Origin: an uncultured Collinsella sp.
GTDB lineage: Bacteria > Actinomycetota > Coriobacteriia > Coriobacteriales > Coriobacteriaceae
Reading direction: 5' to 3'
NCBI GenBank assembly: GCA_944321445.1
Contig: CALULJ010000004.1
Coordinates: forward strand, 1 to 64,000
Length of the DNA: 64,000 nt
Shown: piece by piece, positions 3,973 to 38,596 of the stretch
How the letters are laid out: each line of letters opens with the position of its first letter
Numbering within the stretch: position 1 is the first letter of the stretch
Notes under the pieces: generated by a model
What the model was told of the DNA's origin: nothing
Database searches by the model: none
The model's input: only the letters and a program-made list of their open reading frames with translations
Translations under genes and position numbers: made by a program

Positions 3973-4302
3973 ATGCCTGAGCATATGGGACCTGCCCTCA
4001 TTGACCCCCAGGGAGGCAGGCATGAGCTTACCCGGCGCCAGTATGAGCTGATCGTCTCGATGACCGCGGGCCTGGGACTCGACATCGCCCGGGCGGCAGA
4101 CGCCGCGACGGACGCGATCGTCTCGACGGGTCAAGCGGCAGAGATTCTAGGCGTCTCGCGCCGAACCGTCACGCGTATGCTCGACCGCGGAGAGCTTCCC
4201 GGCATCCGTTTGGGCCCCAACCATCACCGCAGCGTTCGCCTGGTGGACGTCCTTGCCTTCAGGGACCGGGGCGGTATGAAGGTGAGTGGACAGACGGCCT
4301 AG
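3973..4302 (+). CDS. helix-turn-helix (excisionase/MerR-type) DNA-binding protein
   Basis: A 109-residue protein with an excisionase-type winged HTH in the C-terminal half (STGQAAEILGVSRRTVTRML, about residues 46-65, then the wing LPGIRLGPNHHRSVRL). The N-terminal half (HELTRRQYELIVSMTAG) may form a dimerisation helix. ATG 3973 is chosen because AAGGAGG ends four bases before it; the frame is open further upstream without another good start. Similar domains occur in antitoxins and small transcription factors. No toxin partner is visible: the next gene, 28 bases on, is thpR. Specific target unknown. Confidence 0.8.
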   Translation: MPEHMGPALIDPQGGRHELTRRQYELIVSMTAGLGLDIARAADAATDAIVSTGQAAEILGVSRRTVTRMLDRGELPGIRLGPNHHRSVRLVDVLAFRDRGGMKVSGQTA

Positions 4303-25148: not shown

Positions 25149-26275
25149 TTAGATGCCAAAGGCCTTTTTGATCTTGGGGAAATGATTGGATATCGGAACC
25201 ACTAATGCCACAGTGGCAAGGGATGTGATCGTCGCAAACAAGAACAGATGCATATGGGGAACATCATCAGTCGGTCCCCAGACCCCCTGCCATCCGAATA
25301 CTGCATAAATGTATATGGTGGCATATACCATATGCACCAAATAGATAATCGTACTTGCCTTGCGCGAATGTAGAGCAAGTGAACCTGATCTCTTCTCTTG
25401 CTTGCTCACGGATAATAGAAACGTTCCTAACGCAAACATGATGCACCAGGGAAGATGCGCGCTCGCTGAGATCGAAATACATGCTACGGCACCGATTAGG
25501 GCGAGAGCGAAAGAAGCCACCCGGGGCACACTCGCCGACCGCTTCCACTCTACCCCCAAGTACGCCCCAAGTGCTATATAGAAAAAGCCTTCAAACAAGC
25601 CATTCCTGACATTGGCAAACACCAGGAAATACAGATCGAAAACCGACGATACAATGCCAAATCGTGTTTCTGTGCCATGGATTTCAGATAGTAGATAGCC
25701 TGCAACGAGCATTCCGAATGCGATTATCACTACGCGCTGGATGCGACCCCCCCCCGAAGCAATAGATACACCAGAGAGAAAGCGACAACGCTTGCCAGTA
25801 GGTACCAAAGTGGCCAAGAGTAGAGCCCCTCGCCAACAAACAAGAATCCGCGAACCTCATAAACAACCGACAAGATAAGGCCGTGATCGGCAGATTCGTG
25901 CCCAACAATATCTAGAGGAAGCAACAAAGCAAACCACGTTACGTACAGAAAGAGCAGTTTTCTAATCGTTGATTTGATTCGTTGCGAAGCGTTCGAGCGC
26001 CTATCAGCCACGGAAGAGGGATTCAATCCCCTAAAGCAAAGAAAACCGGAAGCGATAAAGAAGAACGGTACAGCAACGCAATCAATTCCTGACACTACGT
26101 GATCAACCGTTTCGTTCCCAAGCGCCATCAGGGGCTTGGTATGAATTTCGACCACAAGAAGTGCCATGATGAGCTTGGTGTAATCTAGAAGGGGAAACGA
26201 TACGGTCATTTTCTGCCCATTATCTTTGGACTCGGCGCTGGCAGAGCCTCGGTCGATTTTCGTTGAACTTATCAT
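25149..26275 (-). CDS. membrane acyltransferase (acyltransferase_3), out of frame at a G9 tract
   Basis: A polytopic O-acyltransferase split in two frames. The N-terminal part begins MISSTKIDRG (26275, GGAGGTGA ribosome site) and includes LDYTKLIMALLVVEIHTKP with a conserved-type His, plus several helices ending WPLWYLLASVVAFSLVYLLL. The C-terminal part (RIQRVVIIAFGMLVAGYLLS to FPKIKKAFGI) continues in another frame. The break lies exactly on nine G (plus-strand C, 25747-25755). Counts of 7 or 10 would restore one protein of about 375 residues. It would acylate the polysaccharide or its precursor. Phase-variable OFF state, fixed mutation or sequencing error are the options. Confidence 0.8.
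25747..25755. repeat. C9/G9 homopolymer inside the acyltransferase gene
   Basis: Nine consecutive C on the plus strand mark the exact position of the frame change between the two halves of the acyltransferase. Nine-base G/C runs are rare by chance and typical of slipped-strand contingency loci. Confidence 0.9.
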
Positions 26276-26338
26276 TGATAAAATCACCTCCAGCTGACAA
26301 AAAACGCATCCGCCATGCGCCGTCAGAAATAAGGGTCG

Positions 26339-26885
26339 CTATCTGACGTATCCGAAACCACCAACCGAGATAAGCCTTCGAAGCATCTCTTCTTTCATCT
26401 CGGCGGTAATACCTCCGTGAAGGGTGTAACCCTCCTCAAAGCGCTCTGCTGCTTCAAGCTCTTCGCTACGCTTTGAAAAGTACTCCGATGAACTGCCGAT
26501 GATGCGAGCGGGATTGCCTGCCACCACGCTGTATGCTGGGACGTCTTTCGTCACCACGGAATGTGCGCCAACGATGCTGCCCTTTCCGACGGTTACGCCG
26601 GGCATCACAATTGCGCCTGCGCCGATGAAGACGTCATCTCCGATTGTCACTAGGCCGATCCTGGTGTATCCGAGCTTCCGCTTCGTGGACGCGTCATGAG
26701 CCAAAAGGTAAGAATAGGGAGCCATAGCGACGTTGTTGCCAATCGAGATTAACCAGCAATGGCCTGCATCGATGGTGCAATGAGGTTGTATGTCGCACCC
26801 CCCCGATGCGTAGGCCGCGGCGCTTCAGGGCATCGATGTCTGCTTCCCCGCGAATGCGGTGAAGAATTCGTCTGATAAGATTCAC
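26339..26885 (-). CDS. serine-acetyltransferase-like hexapeptide transferase, out of frame at a G7 tract
   Basis: A left-handed beta-helix O-acetyltransferase of the kind found in polysaccharide loci. It starts with MNLIRRILHRIRGEADID (GTG 26885, AAAGGAG ribosome site) and reads to RIGG. After seven G (26798-26804) the correct frame is CDIQPHCTIDAGHCW, then the hexapeptide region (GLVTIGDDVFIGAGAIVMPG, VTVGKGSIVGAHSVV) and the end at GGFGYVR. Six or nine G would give one protein of about 180 residues. As sequenced the product would stop early. Probable substrate is a sugar of the repeat unit. Confidence 0.8.
26798..26804. repeat. C7/G7 homopolymer inside the hexapeptide acetyltransferase gene
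   Basis: Seven C on the plus strand coincide with the frame change in the acetyltransferase gene; removing one base restores the frame. Confidence 0.85.
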
Positions 26886-26955
26886 GAAACACTATCTCCT
26901 TTACTCTTAATGGACGTATATCAAGTCGGTAGCTCGCGGTTCGTCTCACCAATCG

Positions 26956-28074
26956 TCAGCTTCTAGATGGCGGGATTTGACCGGGACGGAGCAAGCGTCT
27001 CAGCAGCAGTCGCGCCCGTGAAATTGCCCGCATCGGCAGTAACCAGCCAGCCCTTCTCTTCACTCGCAAGAGAAGAGCTCCCGGGGTACTCCGAACAGCG
27101 AGTAAACCGCGAAACAGGAAATCAACGTCCCCCCTTTTGGATGCATCTTCGACCTTCTTCGCGAATTCCGCATTCGCCTCATTGCGTTGAGTGGACCGAA
27201 TCAGATTGAAATTGTGCCTGCTGGCCTTCTCGAAGGTGGATTCCTGAACCTTGCAAGCCGATTCGCAGCTCGTCTCGAAATAAGTTTTGCCCTTCGGCGT
27301 ATTGATCATGAGGACTGAGGCTCCTGCTGCGCAGTCGAAGCCAGGATGCTCCTCCTGGATCCCCCAATAATCGCCAAGCGTGAAGTCAGAAGCGCGCTCC
27401 CTGCGGGCGAATCTGCACTTGTAGCATGAACTTCGGTATAACTTTCCGCTCAGAAATGCCGCGTAATACGGGTCTTCGTCGCCCGCTCCGAACTTTTCCT
27501 TCATTCTTCCCGAACGGATGGATTTATAGGTGTAGCGGTAATAGAGCCCCCACCCGCGCCTCTTCGATCGGAATTCGTAATGGAGACTTCCGGGAACGGC
27601 GTTATTCTTTTTCTCTAGCCAGGATATGTACTGCCGAAACAGACTCTGGCCTATGACGCCATGGCAGATAACGTCCGCAGTGTATAGCCTGCTCATGTCC
27701 CCTTCGCTGAGTCCTTGCCTAATCAAATACGATCGCAAAGCGAAAATCTGGCATCCGGTTCCCGTCCATAGAACCGTTTTCCCCGTCTTCAGTGCTTCTG
27801 CGCACTCGAAGAACGTTTTGCCGTAATCGCTCTGGACGTATTTCGAGCCTTGAAGTCTCTCCAGTTCGTCCATCGAGCGAACACCCACGTGACGAACGGC
27901 TCCGCCCGGAAGCATTTCCGCTCCAAACACTATGCCCCCACATTGGACGATGGGTCTCGCCAACACAGGAAATGCGCCTCCTGAAGCCGACAAGGCGAGG
28001 GAGGCGAGATCTTTATCCTGAAGGGCAATCACACGCAGGGGGCTATGAAGCAAATCCTCAGTTTTCATTACCAT
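26956..28074 (-). CDS. coenzyme F420 hydrogenase/dehydrogenase beta-subunit-like protein
   Basis: A protein of about 372 residues from the FrhB/FdhB C-terminal family often found next to polysaccharide pyruvyl transferases in surface-polysaccharide clusters. Features are the domain start ALQDKDLASLALSASGGAFP, the Cys in GTGCQIFALRSYL, VICHGVIGQSLF, and a Cys pair CYKCRFARRERASDFTLGDY. The N-terminal ferredoxin domain of some homologues is absent. The start is MVMKTED (28074, AAAGGA site). Its reaction is not known; a redox step on a sugar or pyruvyl group is only a guess from context. It lies directly downstream of wzx. Confidence 0.82.
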   Translation of the reverse strand: MVMKTEDLLHSPLRVIALQDKDLASLALSASGGAFPVLARPIVQCGGIVFGAEMLPGGAVRHVGVRSMDELERLQGSKYVQSDYGKTFFECAEALKTGKTVLWTGTGCQIFALRSYLIRQGLSEGDMSRLYTADVICHGVIGQSLFRQYISWLEKKNNAVPGSLHYEFRSKRRGWGLYYRYTYKSIRSGRMKEKFGAGDEDPYYAAFLSGKLYRSSCYKCRFARRERASDFTLGDYWGIQEEHPGFDCAAGASVLMINTPKGKTYFETSCESACKVQESTFEKASRHNFNLIRSTQRNEANAEFAKKVEDASKRGDVDFLFRGLLAVRSTPGALLLRVKRRAGWLLPMRAISRARLLLRRLLRPGQIPPSRS

Positions 28075-28093
28075 GAAACCTATCCTTTCGATA

Positions 28094-29504
28094 TTATGCG
28101 CGGTGAACATAGCCGGATGCAGCTTTTACCAAGCTTCTGATCTTTGAGCGATACAACCACAGCATCAGCATCAGCTCCGCGACAAGCAAGACGAGGTTCA
28201 CGATCGAGATGTTCGACGCGTACGCAATCACGGCCAACGATAAAAGCGCGGCCCTCCCTATGAGGAGCCCGGCCTTCACACCAAGCTCCATTTTTTTCCT
28301 AAGAACTGCCAAGCGGATGACGATATTCACTGCGAAAGCAGCAAGGATAGCCAGATTAGTCCCATTAAGCCCAAATGTAATGGTCAGCGGATAAGTGAGA
28401 ACGATGTTCACTAGGCATGAGACCGCCATGGTCTTGCCAATTGTTCTGGTATCTTTTATGACGTAGAAGATGTTTCCTATGAAGGTCGATACGGCGCTCA
28501 ACACGGCCACTGCAAGGAAAGAGGGTATAACCGCGTACGACTCAGCATAATCTGCCCCAACCAATATCGGAAACAGAAGAGAAATCACGGGCAGGAGCAA
28601 GGCAAGCGCATCGCAAAGGAAAGCGGCGTACTGAGTTACGGCACTCGAGTAATACTCTCTCTTTCGCATGTCCGAAGTAAACGACACGTCCTGCCATGCA
28701 TACGTGAAGCAAGTCGTCGCCAGGCTTATCGCTGAACCAAACCGTGACCCAACGGCAAAGATTCCGCTCGCAGATAGCGACAAGGCAAACGAAACCACAA
28801 TCCTGCCCAAACTATTCAGAAGCCAGTAAGCAACCGAATTCAAGCATAGAGGGGCAGAGTACAGGAAGAGGCTTTTCACTTCCTGCGGTCTAGGACGTGC
28901 AAGTCTCCTCCACATTCTGAGCGACAGAAACAGATAGCAGCATTGGGCAAAAGAACCAGTGATATACGCAATGTAAAGCGCTTCGTATCCCCAGTCGAGA
29001 AGAACGATTAAGATGACATTGAGCGCCACGTTAACGGCAGAGCAGATTATCCCCGAGAGGGCGAAGCGGACGTTGTCACCCCAACCCCTTGCAATGTACG
29101 AGAACATGGACTGCAAGTTGAGAAACGTTCCGTACAGCAGAATCAGGCCCAGGTATTCGATGTCGAATAGGACGCCAGCGGCGGCACCTATCAAATAATA
29201 TAGAGCAGTTGAGCCGCCGAATACGACCCATCCGCTCGCAACCACGATTTTCGGCGCTTCCCCTTTGAGGTCGTCGCGCATGAATCGCATCACGCTTGTC
29301 CATATGTCGCAGTAGAGGAATGAGGTCAGGAGCGTGACGCAGGTGACGGACACATCGAAGTATCCGTAATCGGCGCTTGGCAAAGCGTTGGTGTATAGGG
29401 GGGAGCAGCGCAACCGTGATTACCCTGCTGAGCGTGTTGCCCACGAAGAATATAAGCGACGATTTCGCAAATGAAAGGAATCCGCTACCGGCGGTATCTA
29501 GCAT
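28094..29504 (-). CDS. Wzx-type polysaccharide flippase, out of frame at a C6 tract
   Basis: An integral membrane translocase of the MATE-like/oligosaccharide flippase family with about 12-14 helices, moving lipid-linked repeat units across the membrane. The N-terminus (MLDTAGSGFLSFAKSSLIFF, VGNTLSRVITVALLP) is in one frame; the remainder (PLYTNALPSADYGYFDVSVT to the end) is in another. The switch lies at six C of the coding strand (29398-29403); five would restore about 470 residues. The flippase is normally essential for surface export, so the OFF state would silence the polysaccharide. A fixed mutation or sequencing error is also possible. Confidence 0.83.
29398..29403. repeat. C6/G6 homopolymer inside the flippase gene
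   Basis: Six G on the plus strand lie at the frame break of the wzx gene; one base fewer restores the frame. At six bases slippage is less expected than for the nine-base tracts. Confidence 0.75.
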
Positions 29505-29524
29505 AATAGACCGACTCCACCTAC

Positions 29525-30697
29525 TTACTCGCTACGGGCAACTCGCTTTGAATCGAGCGCACTTCGAAGGAACTCGAGCGTCTCGTCCCTTTTCGCACTG
29601 AGGCTCGCCCTTGCAGATTCAAAATCAATGGGCCGCTCCATCAAATCGATCTGGTCAAAGTCGGCAAGAAGGCGCTCCTTAAGACCAGTGAGCTCGAGGA
29701 TGCTTTCAATGCGGGTTGAGAACCTGCCCGGACTGATAGAAACAAATGGTTTCTCGAAGTTCAACGAGAAGGCCGTAGCGTGGAAGGAATCGGTCACGAT
29801 GCAGGCAGAGCGGAGAAAGCACCCAATGAAATCCGTGACCTCGGGCGTCACGAGGTTGACAGCTCCCCTCAATCTCTCATTTTTGCGGTAGCAAACCTTC
29901 ACCAAGGGGACACCCATCCTGCTCGAGAGTCGCTTAGCGTATTCGGCGAATCGATCGTCGGGGTTGAGCTGGTACACAAGGATGTAGTTCTCCGGAAGTC
30001 CTTCCGGTATCGTCGAAACCCTTTCCCATTCCTTTTTGGATATCAAGAGCGTGGGGTCAAGAACAAGACTCACGTCAGTAAATCCCAAGTCCTCAAGTAT
30101 GCAAACCCCAGAAGCCTCGCGCATGGAGATTGCATCGTACCTAGACAACGCGTCCTTTGTCTGCGGCTTTTCCCATTCTTCGAGGCGGCTTTTCCCAATG
30201 CTCGCCGCGAAGGCGATACGAGGTTTTCCGATAGGAGCCCATGACAAGAACAGTGCCTCGTCAAAGCCCTCGTTCCACGTGCTATTCCAGACCTGGTCGC
30301 TGCCAGTGCAGTACACATCTGCCAAGGGCGGTTTAGAGGCCAGCTGCTCGACTGAGAGATACCTCTTCGTTTTGTACAGCATCGCTTCCTGAAACGTCCT
30401 GAACGGCCTTCTCTTGCGTTCAAGCGCATAATCGTATGCCTGATAGACCAGCCTTCTTACGCATCGCGGCGTGCGTGCCCAAAATGCAGACAAAGGACGA
30501 AGGCGTCCGTTTTTGAAAGATTTGTCTACCAGGTAGGAAGACTGGTTCACCTTCCGCCAATAATCGACAAGGAGCGGCCTCCATCCCAAGCTCTCAAATA
30601 CAGACTGGGTGGCGTATGCCTGAAGGCACGAGCCGTAATTCGGCGTGGTGTGAAGAGTGATATAGCAGACAGTTTTCAAAACAAACCTTTCAGTCAT
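29525..30697 (-). CDS. polysaccharide pyruvyl transferase family protein
   Basis: A 390-residue CsaB/WcaK-like enzyme predicted to add a pyruvyl ketal to a sugar. Family features are the N-terminal YITLHTTPNYGSCLQAYA segment, the YCTGSDQVWNSTW motif (about 130-145), SMREASGV, and SFHATAFSLNFEKPFV near the C-terminus. The gene is intact and lies between a glycosyltransferase and the flippase. Together with the F420H2-dehydrogenase-like gene it forms a combination often seen in capsule clusters. Pyruvylation would give the polymer negative charge. Confidence 0.9.
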   Translation of the reverse strand: MTERFVLKTVCYITLHTTPNYGSCLQAYATQSVFESLGWRPLLVDYWRKVNQSSYLVDKSFKNGRLRPLSAFWARTPRCVRRLVYQAYDYALERKRRPFRTFQEAMLYKTKRYLSVEQLASKPPLADVYCTGSDQVWNSTWNEGFDEALFLSWAPIGKPRIAFAASIGKSRLEEWEKPQTKDALSRYDAISMREASGVCILEDLGFTDVSLVLDPTLLISKKEWERVSTIPEGLPENYILVYQLNPDDRFAEYAKRLSSRMGVPLVKVCYRKNERLRGAVNLVTPEVTDFIGCFLRSACIVTDSFHATAFSLNFEKPFVSISPGRFSTRIESILELTGLKERLLADFDQIDLMERPIDFESARASLSAKRDETLEFLRSALDSKRVARSE

Positions 30698-30760
30698 CCA
30701 AACGAGGAAAGAGGGGCTACCGGCAGCCCAGAAGCACGCTAAAGGGAAATCGCAGGAAAA

Positions 30761-31789
30761 CTACCTACCAGCCGTTTTCCGAAGTGACCCTTTTATGCTA
30801 CAAAGTGGTGGAATGCACGAGTAAAGACCGTGCATCATTAAGGTCCCTATAACGCGATAATCGAGACGAACCCTCTTTCGTGCCGTCTCATCGCGGTACG
30901 CATCCTGAAACTCCTCAGAGGCTGCCAGCTCACCTATCTTTGCCACGGCTTCTGATGCCGGCAGCGTCTCGGATGCCAACTGCGCAAGCTCCGCATAGGA
31001 CGTTATGCAGAGACCCTTTACGCCCGTGAGGAATGCCGGGTTGTCGTAGCATTCCGCCCAGCGCTCTGCATATCTCATCTGCTCGTTGCGGACAGAGCGG
31101 CGAGACCTGACCTGCTCCTCGCTGAACCGTTTCGTGAGGCTGGAGTAGTTGATCCGATAATAATACAAGGGTTCATGAATATAACACGCGCTGGACGCCA
31201 GATCCACTAGAGGCAGAGACTGAAGAAGGTCCTCACCGTAGCTCAGGCCCGCGTATCTCGAATAGTCTTCGCCAACGTTGAAGATGGTCCGCCGCACAGC
31301 CTTCAAGACCAGCGGGTTGAGCGCGGAAGACGAGCAAAGGCGATACCTGAGCTCCTCGAGATCATCTCCAGAAAAGAAGGCGCTAGCAGAAAATGGCGCC
31401 TGTACACCATCCATGGAATAGTCTTCTCTCCTCGATAGCGCAAAGATGACCATATCCACCTTGGACGAGGAGAATGCTCGATCTATAACAGCAAGTGCAT
31501 CCGACCTTAGTTTGTCATCACTGTCGAGCGTCATAAGGACATCGCCGCTAGCCGCTCTGAAGCCAACCCTTCTCGCCAAAAGAAGACCTGAGTTCTGTTG
31601 CTCGATAAGCTTTACGCGGTCGGGGTGTCTGTGAGCGTAATCTCGACAAATCGCTCCGCTGGAATCAGTCGACCCATCGTTGACCAAAATCACCTCGATA
31701 TCTTCGACAGGCTGATTCAAAGCGGACTCTATGCATTCTCGGAGATACCGTTCAACATTGTAGACAGGGATAATGATTGAGTATTTCAT
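30761..31789 (-). CDS. glycosyltransferase family 2
   Basis: A 342-residue GT-A-fold transferase. It shows the N-terminal IIIPVYNVERYLRECIESAL, the nucleotide-binding EVILVNDGSTD, and the metal-binding DxD-type LDSDDK (about residue 90). A C-terminal region may contact the acceptor. The start is MKYSIIIP at 31789, two bases after the polymerase stop, so translation is coupled. The longer frame upstream overlaps the polymerase gene and is rejected. Sugar donor unknown. Confidence 0.9.
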   Translation of the reverse strand: MKYSIIIPVYNVERYLRECIESALNQPVEDIEVILVNDGSTDSSGAICRDYAHRHPDRVKLIEQQNSGLLLARRVGFRAASGDVLMTLDSDDKLRSDALAVIDRAFSSSKVDMVIFALSRREDYSMDGVQAPFSASAFFSGDDLEELRYRLCSSSALNPLVLKAVRRTIFNVGEDYSRYAGLSYGEDLLQSLPLVDLASSACYIHEPLYYYRINYSSLTKRFSEEQVRSRRSVRNEQMRYAERWAECYDNPAFLTGVKGLCITSYAELAQLASETLPASEAVAKIGELAASEEFQDAYRDETARKRVRLDYRVIGTLMMHGLYSCIPPLCSIKGSLRKTAGR

Positions 31790-31791
31790 AG

Positions 31792-32997
31792 CTATCCTAT
31801 CGCTCGCGGGATAACACCGAAAAGAAGGGCACACAGAATTGAGCTGACCGAACAGGACGATGCCATTTGAAACAAATAAAGTAGGAAAAGGGCAGATGAG
31901 AGTGCTACGAGAGCATATCGCGTTAGCGTCTTGCCTAAAACTTTCCCGGGTTCGTGTGCACCGCTCTTTGCATGTGAATCGATTGCCAACATAATTCCAA
32001 GGGGCTCGAAGAAGTATGCGGTTCTGAGATAGACGTCCGAAGCGATGAAAATGGCTATCCCCAGAGTCATGCAAATTCCAATGAGAACCGAAGAAGTGAA
32101 TACCTTTGCCATTCGGTCAGCCCGTATTCGGCTCTGAATCAAAATACTGCGGCAGGTAATAATCAGTATCAGCAGGAGAATGCTATTTGTAAAACGTAAC
32201 ATCTGCTGGAAACTACTTGAAAGAACCTCAGCTGCCCAGCCTGTTTCCGTCCATGAATCATAATACGTAAGCGTATCCATCGCTCCAGCCAGTAATGGGA
32301 CATTGGACGAAATGAGACCCGCGACCGAAAGAACTGCTGGAAGCGCAAACACAGATAGGATTCCAGCCAATGCAGGTTTCCTGCCAAACAGCAAGGAGAG
32401 TAGCCTTACGCAGATGACTAAAGCCCCAACAGTATGAATGAAGCACGGTAGCAAATACAAAGCAACCGTCAGTAGATTCAACTTACCCCGAGAGGCATCC
32501 CTATACAATGCCAATACGCCCAAACTCATGGCAAGAGATGAACGGACCGCACTCACGCTTCCGAATAGGGATATGGAAAAAAGAGCAGCAAGAATTGCGA
32601 TACAGATACTCCGAAACGCGAAGTCATTACGAGCGCAATAGTCGAAAATGATATAGCTTGCAGACGTAAAAACTATGAATCCGACGACAAATGGTAGGCT
32701 ATCAGCCCCTACGGTATTTGCCGTTATCCAGAAGAAGAGTGACGCCACTGGACTATCGCTGTATCTCCCCAAAACGACATAGTCCAAAGGACGTCCACTG
32801 TATTCGGAGGCAGTCGCAATGTATCGATACAAGTCTCCCTGGGATTCTACGTCCAGCGATACGGCAATCGCTCCAAATGCTGCACCAAGAGCGATCGCGC
32901 ATACAACGGGCCTTTTAGTTCGCCAAAAGTAGCCAAGAACGAACGGAATAGATGGCAGTGGGAATAATAAACTTGTCAGTATGAGGAGTATTGCCAT
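31792..32997 (-). CDS. EpsG-family polysaccharide polymerase (Wzy-like)
   Basis: A 401-residue membrane protein with about 10-12 hydrophobic helices. The periplasmic loop after TM2-3 contains the EpsG-type motif DLYRYIATASEYSGRPLD, and a second VYLRTAYFFEPLGIM segment lies near the C-terminus. It would join flipped repeat units into chains outside the membrane. Base composition is lower in GC than the flanking backbone, as usual for polymerase genes. It is tightly packed: one base separates it from the upstream GT4 gene. Confidence 0.85.
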   Translation of the reverse strand: MAILLILTSLLFPLPSIPFVLGYFWRTKRPVVCAIALGAAFGAIAVSLDVESQGDLYRYIATASEYSGRPLDYVVLGRYSDSPVASLFFWITANTVGADSLPFVVGFIVFTSASYIIFDYCARNDFAFRSICIAILAALFSISLFGSVSAVRSSLAMSLGVLALYRDASRGKLNLLTVALYLLPCFIHTVGALVICVRLLSLLFGRKPALAGILSVFALPAVLSVAGLISSNVPLLAGAMDTLTYYDSWTETGWAAEVLSSSFQQMLRFTNSILLLILIITCRSILIQSRIRADRMAKVFTSSVLIGICMTLGIAIFIASDVYLRTAYFFEPLGIMLAIDSHAKSGAHEPGKVLGKTLTRYALVALSSALFLLYLFQMASSCSVSSILCALLFGVIPRAIG

Positions 32998-32998
32998 G

Positions 32999-34084
32999 TT
33001 AGCTCACTTGTGAATACAAATTGATATAGGTGTCAGCCATGGTTTTGGAAGAAAAAATCGCAGGGGCGGCCTGAAGCCCTTCTAGCTGTGCAATGCCAAG
33101 AAGACTCTGTATCATGGTGTCATTGAGGGATGCGCTATCTACGCATATAGCGCAGTGCTGACTGCCCATAACGCTCACTATTTCGCGATGTGGCGGAATA
33201 TCGGACAGCAAAGCTGGCAACCCACAGCTGATCGCCTCAAGTACCGCTAAAGGCATCCCTTCCGAAGCGGAGGCAGACACAAACAAATCACACGCTTGCA
33301 GCCATGGGACAACTTCGTCGACGAATCCATGAAAATAGACGCGCGGCAGCCCAAGCGATCTGCATTTAGCATATTCAGGACCCTCACCAAATACGTGTAG
33401 CTCAGCATCGGCAGCAGTTTCCTTAAGAGCGGAAGAGAACGCCTCCACGAGCGGAAGAGTCCTCTTCCGCTCGCTGCATCCGCCGGTCGACACAAATGCG
33501 AGTGTATTCTGGCCGATACCGAGCCTCTTGCGCAGCTCCTCGCGCGGCGCCGCAGCAAGCGGTAGGTATTTAGTCTGATCGACCCCGTTGCGGATCGCCT
33601 CGACCTCAAGATCGTATTCCTTCCGGAGGTAGTCTGCATTCGACTCCGAGCATGCGATGACGGCATCGTAGCGTCTAAGCGCCGACACCTCGACACGCGT
33701 CATCCATATCGCCCTGGGCTTCCCGTATGTGGTCAGGTAGTCCTCAAATATGCAGTTGTGCACCGTGGCTATCCGAGCGTACGGCAAATCGCGGCACAGA
33801 ATCGTTGCCCGGAAGCCGTGAGCATGGACTATGTCCGGGGCGAAGCGCGCAATCGCGCGGCTCAGCGCGCGATTGCCACCCAGCATCGATTGCGTGCGGC
33901 TATCAAAAACCCGCTTGACGGGCAAGCCGATGCGCTCGAAGTCCTCAGCTCTGGATCCATCGGGCTCGGGCGCGAGCGTGAAGACGGCGGTCTCGCAGGA
34001 AGCATCCAGGTTGTTGACGATATCGAAGAGCACGTTGACCGGCCCGCACCGCTTAAGGGTGGAGATGACGTAGGCTACCCTCAC
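32999..34084 (-). CDS. glycosyltransferase family 4
   Basis: A 361-residue GT-B-fold transferase. The N-terminal lobe has VAYVISTLKRCGPVNVLFDI and DIVHAHGF. The C-terminal donor-binding lobe has FVSTGGCSERKRTLPLVEAF, the acidic E-x7-E type motif SASASEGMPLAVLEAISCGL, and a Pro-rich end. The start ATG overlaps the stop of the preceding GT2 gene (34081-34084). Sugar specificity unknown. Confidence 0.9.
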   Translation of the reverse strand: MRVAYVISTLKRCGPVNVLFDIVNNLDASCETAVFTLAPEPDGSRAEDFERIGLPVKRVFDSRTQSMLGGNRALSRAIARFAPDIVHAHGFRATILCRDLPYARIATVHNCIFEDYLTTYGKPRAIWMTRVEVSALRRYDAVIACSESNADYLRKEYDLEVEAIRNGVDQTKYLPLAAAPREELRKRLGIGQNTLAFVSTGGCSERKRTLPLVEAFSSALKETAADAELHVFGEGPEYAKCRSLGLPRVYFHGFVDEVVPWLQACDLFVSASASEGMPLAVLEAISCGLPALLSDIPPHREIVSVMGSQHCAICVDSASLNDTMIQSLLGIAQLEGLQAAPAIFSSKTMADTYINLYSQVS

Positions 34085-34920
34085 TTCGCGCGCCCCCTCA
34101 ACAGGCCGTTGTATGCAGCTTTCACGAGACGGGACGGCAGAACCGTTGCCACCGTCCTCTCGATGACCGCACGAGTCCAGCCCACACGGCCGACCAGTCC
34201 AAGCCGGCGCAGAGCGGAGAAGAACTCAATCTGGCTTTTCAGGTACGCCGAGTTCGAGCGGCGAGTATACATCCCGTTCCCGACCCGCACGTCAACGACC
34301 ACGTCGGAAACGTTCGCGCAACTGCATCCCGCCGAAACCATCCTGGCCCAAAGCCAGTAGTCCTCCATCCACGGAAAAGGAAGATACCCGCCGGCTGCGC
34401 CGACCGCGCGCCTATCGAACATGACTGTCATATGATTGAAGGGGTTCCGCCGCTTGATCCCCCTTTCGATAGCGCACTGGTCGAGGGGCACCATACGGAT
34501 TGCGCCCATATCGCCAGGCTCCCGGTCGAACTCCTCGATGACCCCACCCACGAGGTCGAGGTTGTCGGAGGCCATCTTCTCGAGCAGGATGCGGCAGCGG
34601 TCGGGGCGCGACACGTCGTCGGCGTCCATGCGAGCAACGACGTCGCAGCGGCACAGCGGCAGGCCGGCGGCGAGCGCCGGGCCGAGCCCGCCGTTCTCCG
34701 GCAGGCGGTGGATCGTCATGCGCCCTTCGAGCTCCCATTCCCAGTCGGAGAGCACGGCGTCGAGACCGTCCGTGAGCGGGCCGTCGCAGACGACGACCAT
34801 GTCGCGGAACGGCACCGTCTGCCTCGCCATCGAGGTGATGGCGGCGTCGAGGTACTCGGGCTTGTCCTTGGCGTACACCGACATGAGGACGGAGTACAGA
34901 GGCAACTTCGTCGCGCTCAT
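34081..34920 (-). CDS. glycosyltransferase family 2
   Basis: A 279-residue GT-A transferase beginning MSATKLPLYSVLMSVYAKDK. It shows DMVVVCDGPLTDGLD, the metal site ARMDADDVSRPDR (about 95-108) and a domain close to EpsE/rhamnosyl-type enzymes (FPWMEDYWLWARM). The start codon overlaps the upstream sugar-transferase stop as ATGA (34917-34920). A longer open frame to 35277 is a shadow of that gene. It is translationally coupled at both ends. Confidence 0.9.
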   Translation of the reverse strand: MSATKLPLYSVLMSVYAKDKPEYLDAAITSMARQTVPFRDMVVVCDGPLTDGLDAVLSDWEWELEGRMTIHRLPENGGLGPALAAGLPLCRCDVVARMDADDVSRPDRCRILLEKMASDNLDLVGGVIEEFDREPGDMGAIRMVPLDQCAIERGIKRRNPFNHMTVMFDRRAVGAAGGYLPFPWMEDYWLWARMVSAGCSCANVSDVVVDVRVGNGMYTRRSNSAYLKSQIEFFSALRRLGLVGRVGWTRAVIERTVATVLPSRLVKAAYNGLLRGRAK

Positions 34921-35810
34921 CGTGCCCCCTCCCCGGTGGCCATGGTGCGAAGCGTCCTCCATATGAGGGAGAAGTCCAGGGCGAAGCCCCGGTTCTCTAT
35001 GTAATCGATGTCCAGCAGCGCTTTCTCCTTGGGGAGCAGCTCGTAGCCGCCCTCCACCTGGGCGAGGCCGGTGATGCCAGGGCGCACGGCGAGCCGCTGC
35101 TCCCAGCCGTCGATCCTCTGCCTGAACGCCTCGTGGAACACAGGGCGCTCGGGGCGCGGGCCTATGAGGGACATGTCGCCGCGCACCACGTTCCAGAACT
35201 GGGGCATCTCGTCCAGGCGGGAGTTCCTGAGCTTGCGCCCGAACGGCGTGACGCGCGGGTCCTCGCCGGCCGCCCACTGCGCGCCCCGCGCCTCGGCGTC
35301 GGTGTACATGGAGCGGAACTTGTAGACCTTGAAGAGTCTCCCGCCCTTGCCCACGCGCGTCTGGGCGTAGATCACCGGGCCGGGGGACTCGCTCTTGATC
35401 TTCAGGGCGATGACCCCCATGGGTATAGCGAGTATCACGAGCGCACAGGAGCAGGCCATGACGTCGAACGCGCGCTTGGCGGCGCGGTAGACGGGCCCGC
35501 CGTTGACGCGTTTGAGCCTCGGCAGCTCCACGACCTCGTCATCGGGCAGCAGCTTGGCGAGCACGTCGGGCGCGATCGCGCACTCGGTCAGGCCGGGCGT
35601 GTGGCTCAGCGCATGAAGCACCGCCTTGGCCTCGTACTCGTCGGAGGCCTCCTCGGCCGCCTCTGCCAGCTGCTCCACCACAGCGGGAACGCTCTCGTCT
35701 TTGGTTGTGCTTTCGGTGCCGGGAGTCGCCTGCGCATGCGCGGCCTCCTGCGGCGCTAGCACGCCTGCTCCCGATAATCTACCTGAGGCATCGAGTGCCC
35801 CCCCCCTCAA
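34917..35810 (-). CDS. initiating sugar-phosphate (undecaprenyl-phosphate) transferase with G9 tract at start
   Basis: A polyisoprenyl-phosphate hexose-1-phosphate transferase (WcaJ/WbaP C-terminal type) that starts the repeat unit on the lipid carrier. Features are a basic membrane-re-entrant entry (YRAAKRAFDVMACSCALVIL), the core KVYKFRSMYTDAEARG, NSRLDEMPQFWNVVRGDMSL, IGPRPERP, and RPGITGLAQVEGG. About 110 non-membrane residues precede it. The only in-frame start in the 9-G state is a TTG abutting the tract (35798-35806) without a ribosome site. With 8 G an ATG at 35844 (MERLGC...) would be in frame. So the tract may switch initiation of synthesis. Confidence 0.88.
   Translation of the reverse strand: MRGGALDASGRLSGAGVLAPQEAAHAQATPGTESTTKDESVPAVVEQLAEAAEEASDEYEAKAVLHALSHTPGLTECAIAPDVLAKLLPDDEVVELPRLKRVNGGPVYRAAKRAFDVMACSCALVILAIPMGVIALKIKSESPGPVIYAQTRVGKGGRLFKVYKFRSMYTDAEARGAQWAAGEDPRVTPFGRKLRNSRLDEMPQFWNVVRGDMSLIGPRPERPVFHEAFRQRIDGWEQRLAVRPGITGLAQVEGGYELLPKEKALLDIDYIENRGFALDFSLIWRTLRTMATGEGAR
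35798..35806. repeat. C9/G9 homopolymer at the 5' end of the initiating transferase gene
   Basis: Nine C on the plus strand lie between a possible upstream ATG (35844) and the coding body. Length 8 would join them; the present length 9 does not. Confidence 0.85.
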
Positions 35811-35913
35811 GATTTGAGAGCGCTGTGCATCCCAAGCGTTCCATCAATCAGAATCCCGACCCTGATCCCGTGTTCCTGCAGTTGCGGTGTTGCTTAGTCA
35901 TCAGCCGTTCGCG

Positions 35914-36522
35914 TCAGCTCTTGAACGGCACGTCTATGGGCGCCTGCTCGGTGAAGGCGGCGTCCCCGTCCCCAACGCGCACCTGGCAGCGCCTGCGGTG
36001 CCGGTCAACCTTGGAGATGCGCGACTCCTGGCCCACGAGCGGGCCAGACTGCACGCGCAGCACGCCGTCCACGATCACGGCGGTGGAGCTGCGGATGACG
36101 TGGCTCCCGTCCATGGCTGCGGCGTACCAGGCCGCGGCATCGTCGGCGAGCGGGGCCCAGGAGTGGACGTCGGTACCCACGAGCTCGACAGGCAGGGTCA
36201 GGCGTGACATCGCCTTGGCCAAGCCCGCCGCGTCCGAGGAGATAGCGAAGGCATAGCCCCGGTACATGTTCACGGGCTCCAGGAACCAGACCCCGCCGCG
36301 TTTCATCCAGCGCTCCTTGCGCAGGACGAAGGTGTCCTTCAAGACGGACTCCGGCAGCAGGCGCTTGAGCTCCGAGCAGATGGATGCCTCGCGGCCCCGC
36401 GGCATGCGCAGGAGGTACCAGCGCTCGCGGCCGCGCGGGGTGCGCCGCCCCATGGGGAGCCCTGCGGTCAGGCTGCCGCCGTCTGCTGCCGACCTCGCTG
36501 CTGACGCTGCCGCGACGGTCAT
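35914..36522 (-). CDS. NusG-like antiterminator (LoaP/UpxY type)
   Basis: A 202-residue specialised NusG paralogue. The N-terminal NGN domain has RWYLLRMPRGREASICSELK, a central FLEPVNMYRGYAFAI strand, and a C-terminal KOW motif (LRVQSGPLVGQESRISKVDR). It is the first gene of the polysaccharide operon. Such proteins load on RNA polymerase and prevent premature termination across long biosynthetic operons. The ATG has a GGGAGGGG ribosome site. The downstream operon is over 10 kb, the usual target size. Confidence 0.88.
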   Translation of the reverse strand: MTVAAASAARSAADGGSLTAGLPMGRRTPRGRERWYLLRMPRGREASICSELKRLLPESVLKDTFVLRKERWMKRGGVWFLEPVNMYRGYAFAISSDAAGLAKAMSRLTLPVELVGTDVHSWAPLADDAAAWYAAAMDGSHVIRSSTAVIVDGVLRVQSGPLVGQESRISKVDRHRRRCQVRVGDGDAAFTEQAPIDVPFKS

Positions 36523-36926
36523 CCCGACCCCTCCCTTCCCGGTGCCCGCGCTCGCGCCCCGGGCGGGGGTGCGCGAAAAGGTACACGTTATGAGGAGGCT
36601 TAAGTTATCGGATGTTAAGGGGTGTTACGGTTTATGTAGCTGCGGTTTCTTTACAGAGGATCGCGCAAGGCTGTGTATAATGGGATGCGTTACATGGGTC
36701 TAAAAACGTGTACTTTTTGACAGCGCTTGAGGCATCCAGAGACCGACGAAGTGTTCCCATCTACCTGCAAAGACACTCATCCCGGAGCGCGAAATACCTC
36801 TAGGGCAATCCCGCCCATTCGTTCCAAAATCGACGGATTCATGCCGTATTCGGCCAGCAACGTCCGGAAAGCGATACCTTCTTCTCAGGAAGCAAGTTGC
36901 CATCTGCCCGGATGATGGAGGCCACC
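36523..36926. promoter_or_regulatory. divergent control region between the polysaccharide operon and the peptide gene
   Basis: 404 bases without a supported gene. On the plus strand TATAAT (36676-36681) is a plausible -10 box for the peptide gene. GTACACGTT (about 36580) and AACGTGTAC (about 36705) form a separated inverted pair that may be operators. The operon promoter on the minus strand was not located with confidence. Confidence 0.45.
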
Positions 36927-37506: not shown

Positions 37507-38596
37507 TCACCACCGAGGCTGTCGTCCGAGTTGCCGGCCCGATAGGTCGTAGACCTGCCGCGTGGGGGCAGAAACAAGCTTGCTCTCCTTCACCACGTCG
37601 GAAAGGTAACGTCTTACCGTCCTCTCACCAACGCTCGTGACCCGCTCGCAAACGGCCGATGCGGGGAAAAAGCCGTAACGGGCAATGAGGTCATCGACCG
37701 CGCTCTCGACCTCCGCGCGCGTGCGGCTCCTTCTGGACCCACCAACGACTCCGCTTCTCTCAGTCTCCTTCGCGGCCTCGCGATCGTCCTCATTCCCCAC
37801 CATGCTCGCCATGACAGGAGGTACCGGCACGAACGCGGTGAACTGATCGCCGTCCTCCAGAACGGGGTCCCTCCCCGTGTAGAGCCGCGAGAACTTGTAG
37901 AGGCTCCTCGTCCCGCTCCCCAGCTCCTCCGAGCGCCCCATCTGCGTGAAGAGGTTGGCGATGATGGGGTTCTTGGGCGTGGGGTCGAGGCTCTCGAGCG
38001 TCACGGGGCCGGCGAAGAGCGCGCGGCTCGCGTTGCTCGTGCGGATGCCCTCTCCATCGATCGTAATGCGGGCGATGTGCGGGCTGACGAACTCCCGGTG
38101 AATGAGGCAGTTGCACACGAGCTCGCGAGCGATGACGTCGCGCGCACTCTTGCGCTGCCCCCCGTCGAGCACGAAGAAGTCCGGCAGCCACTTCTCGCAG
38201 AAGCCGACGAGCTCGCCGTATGCCCTGACGAGATTGCTCCTGCATACAAGCCGGCCCCCAGAACGTATAGAGACGGTCCATGGGAACCCAGACGCGTATG
38301 ACGAGCTTGCCCTCGGAATCGCGCAGCCGTTCAAACTCGACCAGCAGCGACACGTTGAACGGGTCCGGGCTGCTCGGGACGTTGGATATGTTCCGCTCGA
38401 TGGAGAGTGCCGATGTTTCGGGCACACCCTCAACGGTACCGTCGTCACAGACGCCGAGAAGCACGCTACCACCCTGTCGGTTGGCGAACGAGCAAATGGT
38501 CTCGAACGTGTCTTAGCGCGGCTGAGCCCCACAACACTTGAACTCGACGCTTATGCCTTCGCCCGCCTGGATGTATCTATCAAGCACATCGCTCAT
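37507..38596 (-). pseudogene. AlbA_2-type ATP-binding protein, broken by a stop and a frameshift
   Basis: From ATG 38596 the frame reads ISVEFKCCGAQPR, then TAA (38513-38515), then continues DTFETICSFANRQGGSVLLG (AlbA_2/Schlafen-like DNA-binding domain). At about 38255 the frame shifts within a G5 run, after which SNLVRAYGELVGFCEKW and ARELVCNCLIHREF (HATPase AAA_4-like) follow. A winged-helix end carries SVGERTVRRYLSDVV. Intact relatives are about 360-residue regulators or defence-linked proteins. With two lesions it is almost certainly inactive. Confidence 0.8.

Follow-up and report, generated by a model that had tools for sequence, protein, structure and literature searches.

Polysaccharide synthesis in Campylobacter jejuni and Neisseria is subject to slipped-strand contingency loci, in which G/C tracts within capsule and decoration genes switch the reading frame, and switching by homopolymer slippage is already known in Bifidobacterium and Gardnerella as well. 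In Bifidobacterium breve UCC2003, replication slippage at G-tracts is described as switching sortase-dependent pili (PMC9187656). For the Coriobacteriia, papers on Eggerthella lenta describe other mechanisms, namely reversible inversions of capsule clusters linked to loaP (PMC13174815) and the action of prophage recombinases together with diversity-generating retroelements (PMC8778435). In the first of these papers, slipped-strand mispairing is named once, as a general alternative, and the word homopolymer is absent. Among the hits listed in searches of the open-licence literature, judged by title and start of abstract, there was no account of homopolymer phase variation in Coriobacteriia, which is weak evidence of novelty; the remark in a preliminary description of the DNA studied here, that such variation is little described in this class, fits these searches. 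Here we analysed a 64 000 nt stretch (the window) from an uncultured Collinsella sp. (assembly GCA_944321445.1, contig CALULJ010000004.1, positions 1 to 64 000), which belongs to contig 4 of a 2.36 Mb genome in 84 contigs. Profile searches against Pfam and NCBIfam, combined with the reading of open reading frames (ORFs), identified a surface-polysaccharide operon on its minus strand, running from 36522 to 25149. Our results suggest a Wzx/Wzy-type locus in which two genes carry slipped-strand contingency tracts: the first biosynthetic gene, for an initiating sugar-phosphate transferase, and a terminal decorating gene, for an acyltransferase. We assign this reading a probability of about 0.78; the evidence for it is comparative and comes from assembled genomes.

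Four homopolymer runs and their reading frames

Four runs are associated with disrupted frames in the operon:

35798-35806, minus strand: G9 tract in the initiating-transferase leader (G on the coding strand)
29398-29403, minus strand: C6 run in the flippase, located at the frame change (plus strand reads GGGGGG)
26798-26804, minus strand: G7 run in the hexapeptide acetyltransferase, located at the frame change
25747-25755, minus strand: G9 tract in the acyltransferase (G on the coding strand)

The plus strand reads C at 35798-35806, 26798-26804 and 25747-25755. The only G/C runs of at least eight bases in the window are the two G9 runs, each in or next to its gene, the runs of the acetyltransferase and the flippase being shorter than this. 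The length class of the run sets the frame at the run itself in the initiating transferase, the acetyltransferase and the flippase, and shortly 3' of the run in the acyltransferase. Judging by their family matches, the ORFs governed by the runs are probably functional.

In the initiating transferase, the frame opened by the ATG at 35844, which has GGGA upstream, closes after 21 codons, since the G9 run shifts the conserved leader (..ALDA..GAGV) into another frame; this ATG is off-frame relative to the catalytic ORF (34917-35810). Comparison with an uninterrupted homologue in genome G052 placed the frame change of the flippase, between LLP and LYT, exactly at C6, and comparison with an open homologue in G045 placed that of the acetyltransferase exactly at G7. 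The upstream frame of the acyltransferase passes through G9 into GVAS, a motif also present in the open G045 homologue, and the spacing from TCC to GGCTA(T/C), counted by hand, is 38 nt in the window compared with 39 nt in G045. On the simplest reading, its frame change would correspond to a one-base difference about 8-45 nt 3' of G9, and a change in tract length would still shift the two halves against each other. The earlier statement that four genes are broken exactly at a homopolymer therefore holds for the initiating transferase, the acetyltransferase and the flippase, while in the acyltransferase the change lies, by parsimony, 3' of the run.

The genome contains 23 G/C runs of at least eight bases (seven of eight, 14 of nine, one of 10 and one of 13). 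Since a length of nine is commoner than eight, the distribution departs from a falling length series, with a bump at nine. With 16 runs of at least nine in 2.36 Mb, 0.07 would be expected in the operon and two were observed (P ~0.0025, a post hoc value, the operon having been picked for its runs). In 335 kb comprising the window and stretches round the runs, we counted 16 runs of six and four of seven, corresponding to ~113 and 28 when scaled to the genome, and C6 and G7 are on their own not unusual lengths.

Many of the runs in this genome are intergenic, some of them within a repeated CTGGGGACGGGG element, and not all are expected to be switches; some coding or promoter-proximal ones look switch-like. 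A G13 run (L062 7164-7176; C3:65164-65176) lies in the gene for a fused MutH/C5-cytosine methylase; the C-terminal motif, identified by eye, is in another frame, making this gene a candidate phase-variable methylase. In the gene for a 2380-aa FctA-repeat pilin, a G10 run (L067 7195-7204; C8:40195-40204) separates the short leader MSRWFEKYV from the signal peptide. Upstream of a DUF6020 membrane gene, a G9 run (L063 7994-8002; C4:87993-88001) is located between TTGACG and TATACT, which are separated by a 19 nt spacer, and represents a candidate phase-variable promoter; a promoter scanner permitting spacers of 16-18 nt found none at this site. One further G9 is in frame within a protein of secreted appearance. 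Separately, we observed that G-runs at L061 15017, L069 7245, L076 6722 and L080 1414, mostly intergenic, lie in or beside a repeated CTCTGGGGACGGGG-type element.

Tracts in homologues and around initiating transferases

The genome set compared comprises one genome per species. The acyltransferase tract is present at the same codons in three genera and two families: G045, from another genus, carries an open G9 (57% identity before the run and 41% after it), and G223, from another family, carries G8 and is out of frame (45% and 37%). The downstream frame of the G223 gene resumes at the run with the spacing found in G045, indicating that its frame changes at the run. Counting the window's own genome, the upstream half of the acyltransferase matched in 11 of 396 class genomes and the downstream half in two of 65 family genomes. 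The leader tract is also conserved, G039 having G10 at the homologous place in an initiating transferase 81% identical to that of the window; there too, the nearest leader ATG is off-frame. The leader is shared by an initiating transferase of another type on contig C49 of the same genome (39% identical in the alignment), which is open and has G5, and by that of G014, which is open and has an interrupted run. The top three among the 80 best named-genome matches to the window's initiating transferase belong to Adlercreutzia (two) and Slackia (one). No such conservation was seen for the remaining runs in the nearest family homologue of each gene: the acetyltransferase of G045 (47% identical) is open and lacks the G7 run, and the flippase of G052 (39%) is open with CCCC instead of C6.

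PF02397, the family of the initiating transferase, matched 34 of 43 genus genomes. Stretches of up to 20 kb each were taken for the 62 matches outside the window's genome, leaving 57 after five fragments were dropped, and expected numbers of nine-G windows were computed from each genome's total of such windows and its rounded size. Near initiating transferases of 28 genus genomes, 54 nine-G windows were observed, compared with 5.3 expected. These correspond to 33 tracts, with at least one tract in 21 of the 28 genomes (Poisson P ~6e-16 with 5.3 taken as the expected number of tracts, tracts shared by descent not being independent). The window's genome, excluded from the 28, gave three windows versus 0.49 expected. 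G007, G030, G031 and G032 were dropped for anomalous poly-G counts (90, 566, 989 and 270 nine-G windows, respectively), perhaps an assembly artefact; the windows of G007 derive partly from one ~100-base G-rich stretch.

The genus tracts are located in or at the starts of initiating transferases, hexapeptide acetyltransferases, acyltransferases, glycosyltransferases and other genes, most of these families having been assigned by eye, and some are intergenic. BLAST aligned 26 sites to an initiating-transferase start of another clade; in eight of them the longest G run there or close by was 8-11 bases, and in 18 it was 4-6. Reading from an ATG at the run or six bases before it, G005 (G8), G009 (G9) and G019 (G10) gave 246-265 codons, G005 giving 246, while G003 (G10), whose flanks are 90% identical to those of G005, gave 10 codons from the ATG at its run. 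Near-identical relatives also differ in tract length, at a locus other than the window's tracts: in an acyltransferase-like gene the run is 9 in G018, 10 in G004 and 7 plus T in G026, and G004 and G026 each match the flanks of G018 with no more than one mismatch over the 200 nt preceding the run and no more than one over the 180 nt following it. Re-reading of eight acetyltransferase tracts by script showed that G012 (G9), G019 (G9) and G037 (G8) are open to the motif WGG.PAR, while G011 (G9) is not. The G003 tract (G9) is open and the first G014 tract (G10) is in frame; G009 (G10) and the second G014 tract (G8) run out of the expected motif.

Beyond the genus, 79 of 120 searched genomes matched, and 40 stretches from 29 genomes were chosen among the matches listed; this sample omits families f4 to f10 and, within family f3, six genomes with many loci (G110, G124, G128, G141, G182 and G192). 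Other genera of family f1 gave four nine-G windows versus 0.50 expected (three tracts) and family f2 gave 14 versus 1.84 (nine tracts), supporting a tract excess in both. In f3 there were 28 versus 8.04, 21 of the 28 coming from G090, and an excess in this family and further away is unproven. Taken together, tract conservation, the leader G10 of G039, the enrichment and the length differences between relatives argue for slipped-strand phase variation in the two G9 genes. The same proposal, made in the preliminary description for all four genes, is weak for G7 and C6: both runs are short, and the one closest homologue compared in each case lacks the run.

Operon layout and the upstream promoter-like module

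The operon comprises the following genes, in the order of transcription:

35914-36522, minus strand: LoaP-like antiterminator, a NusG paralogue (NCBIfam NF033641 antiterm_LoaP, E 3.9e-22, 79.1 bits, cut-off 125; no Pfam match)
34917-35844, minus strand: initiating polyprenyl-phosphate sugar-phosphate transferase (PF02397, 211.6 bits, cut-off 27; catalytic ORF as given above)
34081-34920, minus strand: glycosyltransferase family 2 (PF00535, 74.7 bits)
32999-34084, minus strand: glycosyltransferase family 4 (PF13692, PF13439)
31792-32997, minus strand: membrane protein, putative Wzy polymerase
30761-31789, minus strand: glycosyltransferase family 2 (PF00535, 109.8 bits on 30761-31786; ATG at 31789 read by hand)
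29525-30697, minus strand: polysaccharide pyruvyl transferase (PF04230, 130.7 bits)
28094-29504, minus strand: Wzx-type flippase (PF01943, 42 bits, cut-off 28.2, on the downstream ORF)
26956-28110, minus strand: FrhB/FdhB-type protein, intact (PF04432, 51.2 bits)
26339-26885, minus strand: hexapeptide O-acetyltransferase (PF00132, 42 bits on the downstream ORF)
25149-26287, minus strand: acyltransferase-3 (O-acyltransferase) in two frames (PF01757, upstream half 49.4 bits, profile 4-143)

An initiating transferase (PF02397) and a flippase (PF01943), which mark a Wzx/Wzy-type operon, are both present, and the seven genes listed besides the four with runs are open reading frames. The polymerase returned zero family matches in the Pfam and NCBIfam profile searches and was assigned putatively from its position and hydrophobic sequence. 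The downstream half of the acyltransferase scored slightly below the PF01757 cut-off of 31 (29.6 bits, profile 152-324). We use the label LoaP-like because the antiterminator falls below the NF033641 cut-off. Past the 3' end of the operon lies an IS21-type element, recognised by an IstB match, and on the other side a gene at 37507-38532 (minus strand) is in two frames near 38255 and apparently decayed, with a weakly RecG-like C-terminus (HATPase_c_4, 21 bits, cut-off 26).

Upstream of the LoaP-like gene we found a promoter-like module that recurs at other loci:

36576-36718, minus strand: promoter-like module; its two imperfect palindromes are spaced 127 nt, and TATACA follows the start of the first one by 39 nt
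L079, about 4144-4293; L086; L224; L254; L271; L273; L230: the same module elsewhere

Its sequence is AAAAAGTACACCTTTTT, with TATACA 39 nt after its start, followed 126-129 nt on by AAAAGGTGTACCTTTTCGCGC, allowing at most three mismatches in each. Both sites are present at eight loci, three of them capsule loci of this genome and five in relatives, in the same orientation and with a spacing of 126-129 nt; at a ninth locus, in G048, the second site alone was found. At each of the five loci examined for this (all but L224, L254 and L271), a LoaP-like gene follows the module. A regulator shared by the module's loci is likely.

Competing explanations, proposed mechanism and known systems

Several observations speak against contingency switching in this operon. 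The tract lengths come from assemblies, at one genome per species. The acyltransferase changes frame, by parsimony, outside its tract, and the acyltransferase-like gene of G018, G004 and G026 has short frames (135, 67 and 128 codons, respectively) and may be a remnant. The enrichment is also sensitive to the genomes included: G007, G030, G031 and G032 gave 0 windows versus 13.1 expected, bringing the total with them to 54 versus 18.4, and family f3 counted by tracts gave 13 versus 8.0 (P 0.07), or five versus 3.5 without G090 (P 0.27). Finally, four off genes in a single operon would also fit decay, that is, an operon being lost whose frameshifts fall at mutation-prone runs and in which no switch is maintained. 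Besides the four genes being off simultaneously, decay would be in keeping with the shortness of the flippase and acetyltransferase runs and their absence from the single homologue examined for each, with another broken gene upstream near 38255 and with the IS21-type element past the 3' end. We nevertheless consider it unlikely, since the seven other listed genes are open, the acyltransferase tract is retained in homologues just 57% and 45% identical before the run, and tracts are enriched at such loci in the genus, where related copies are open at other lengths.

It is rather doubtful that RNA-polymerase slippage or re-initiation gives some full-length protein in every cell, the tracts setting a level without acting as a switch. 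Transcription can slip at nine-G runs, and a TTG at 35810, located at the run, is in frame with the transferase ORF. However, the leader before the run is in-frame coding sequence in the C49 gene and in G014, making 35810 unlikely as the main start, and the analogous B. breve pilus tracts are described as working by replication slippage (PMC9187656). Promoter inversion as the main switch, akin to the capsule-cluster inversions of E. lenta and with the tracts secondary, appears very unlikely: inverted arms at 36576-36594 and 36700-36718 do flank the promoter-like TATACA upstream of the LoaP-like gene, but one orientation was found at eight of eight two-site loci, suggesting a pair of operator-like sites rather than an invertible segment. 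Homopolymer sequencing or assembly error is, in our judgement, more improbable again. The 84-contig assembly is known without its reads and G runs are difficult for some platforms; on the other hand, 150 of the 163 five-base G/C runs scored as coding in the 335 kb keep frame, and eight of 21 frame-change calls, when inspected, comprised six gene junctions, one unclear case and the broken gene near 38255. Because G7, C6 and the run at 35798 came out of this scoring as uncertain, it is no test of those, and it is as a general cause that error was thought unlikely once other runs of the same genome had been scored. In addition, same-codon tracts recur in separate genomes, and G002, a genus member with polysaccharide-locus tracts, is a single contig.

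If the two G9 tracts act as contingency tracts, a copying slip at the leader G9 would shift the frame of the initiating transferase, so that one length class would make the enzyme and start the polymer and the other classes would not. Control by the leader tract would then fall on the first committed step and that by the acyltransferase G9 on a decoration, in a switch that would be reversible at the rate at which the tracts slip and would be felt at the cell surface. In the present assembly both genes read off. An off first gene may also reduce expression of the rest of the operon through polarity, as we infer from the B. breve case (PMC9187656), an effect that a LoaP-like factor would counteract. 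A third switch, slower than these, may exist in the acetyltransferase with its G7. For C6 in the flippase, a chance slippage mutation carried as a passenger is the most likely explanation and fits better than a switch. In Streptococcus pneumoniae, loss of the capsule flippase is reported to be lethal and to be relieved by depletion of the initiating transferase (PMC8561386); by analogy, an off flippase would be survivable here because the initiating transferase is off.

More broadly, we hold it an even bet that the genus and its relatives run genome-wide G-tract switches, the leader tract being a master on/off control of capsule loci with a single loaP promoter module in common and separate tracts serving decorations, pilin and a DNA methylase, with a clone holding many surface states. 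If so, capsule identity would be set partly by chance tract length, beyond gene content, and single assemblies would misreport capsule genes as pseudogenes, making strain comparisons misleading. It would also constitute a second mechanism of capsule variation besides the E. lenta inversions and might affect phage sensitivity and immune recognition.

Compared with known systems, the locus resembles the contingency loci of C. jejuni and Neisseria, which belong to other phyla, and we know of no case there in which the initiating-transferase leader is a recurrent tract site. The E. lenta system is found in the same class and likewise involves loaP-linked capsule clusters and reversible capsule variation, with megabase inversions there and homopolymers here (PMC13174815). 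Gardnerella is described as an actinobacterium with many tracts of at least eight bases, among which lengths of 9 and 10 occurred between colonies; ~70% of its G/C tracts precede ORFs, and cell-surface motifs are common in the proteins named (PMC11287997). In the genomes studied here, by contrast, enrichment was tested on polysaccharide loci and was seen there. The pilus switches of B. breve, also an actinobacterial gut commensal, have a G-tract between a short translated leader and the main ORF, with the usual length off (PMC9187656), and the 2380-aa FctA pilin gene of the window's genome has the same layout. They differ from the present case in that here slippage is predicted from sequence and tracts are also located in polysaccharide genes, those of the initiating transferase and the decorating acyltransferase.

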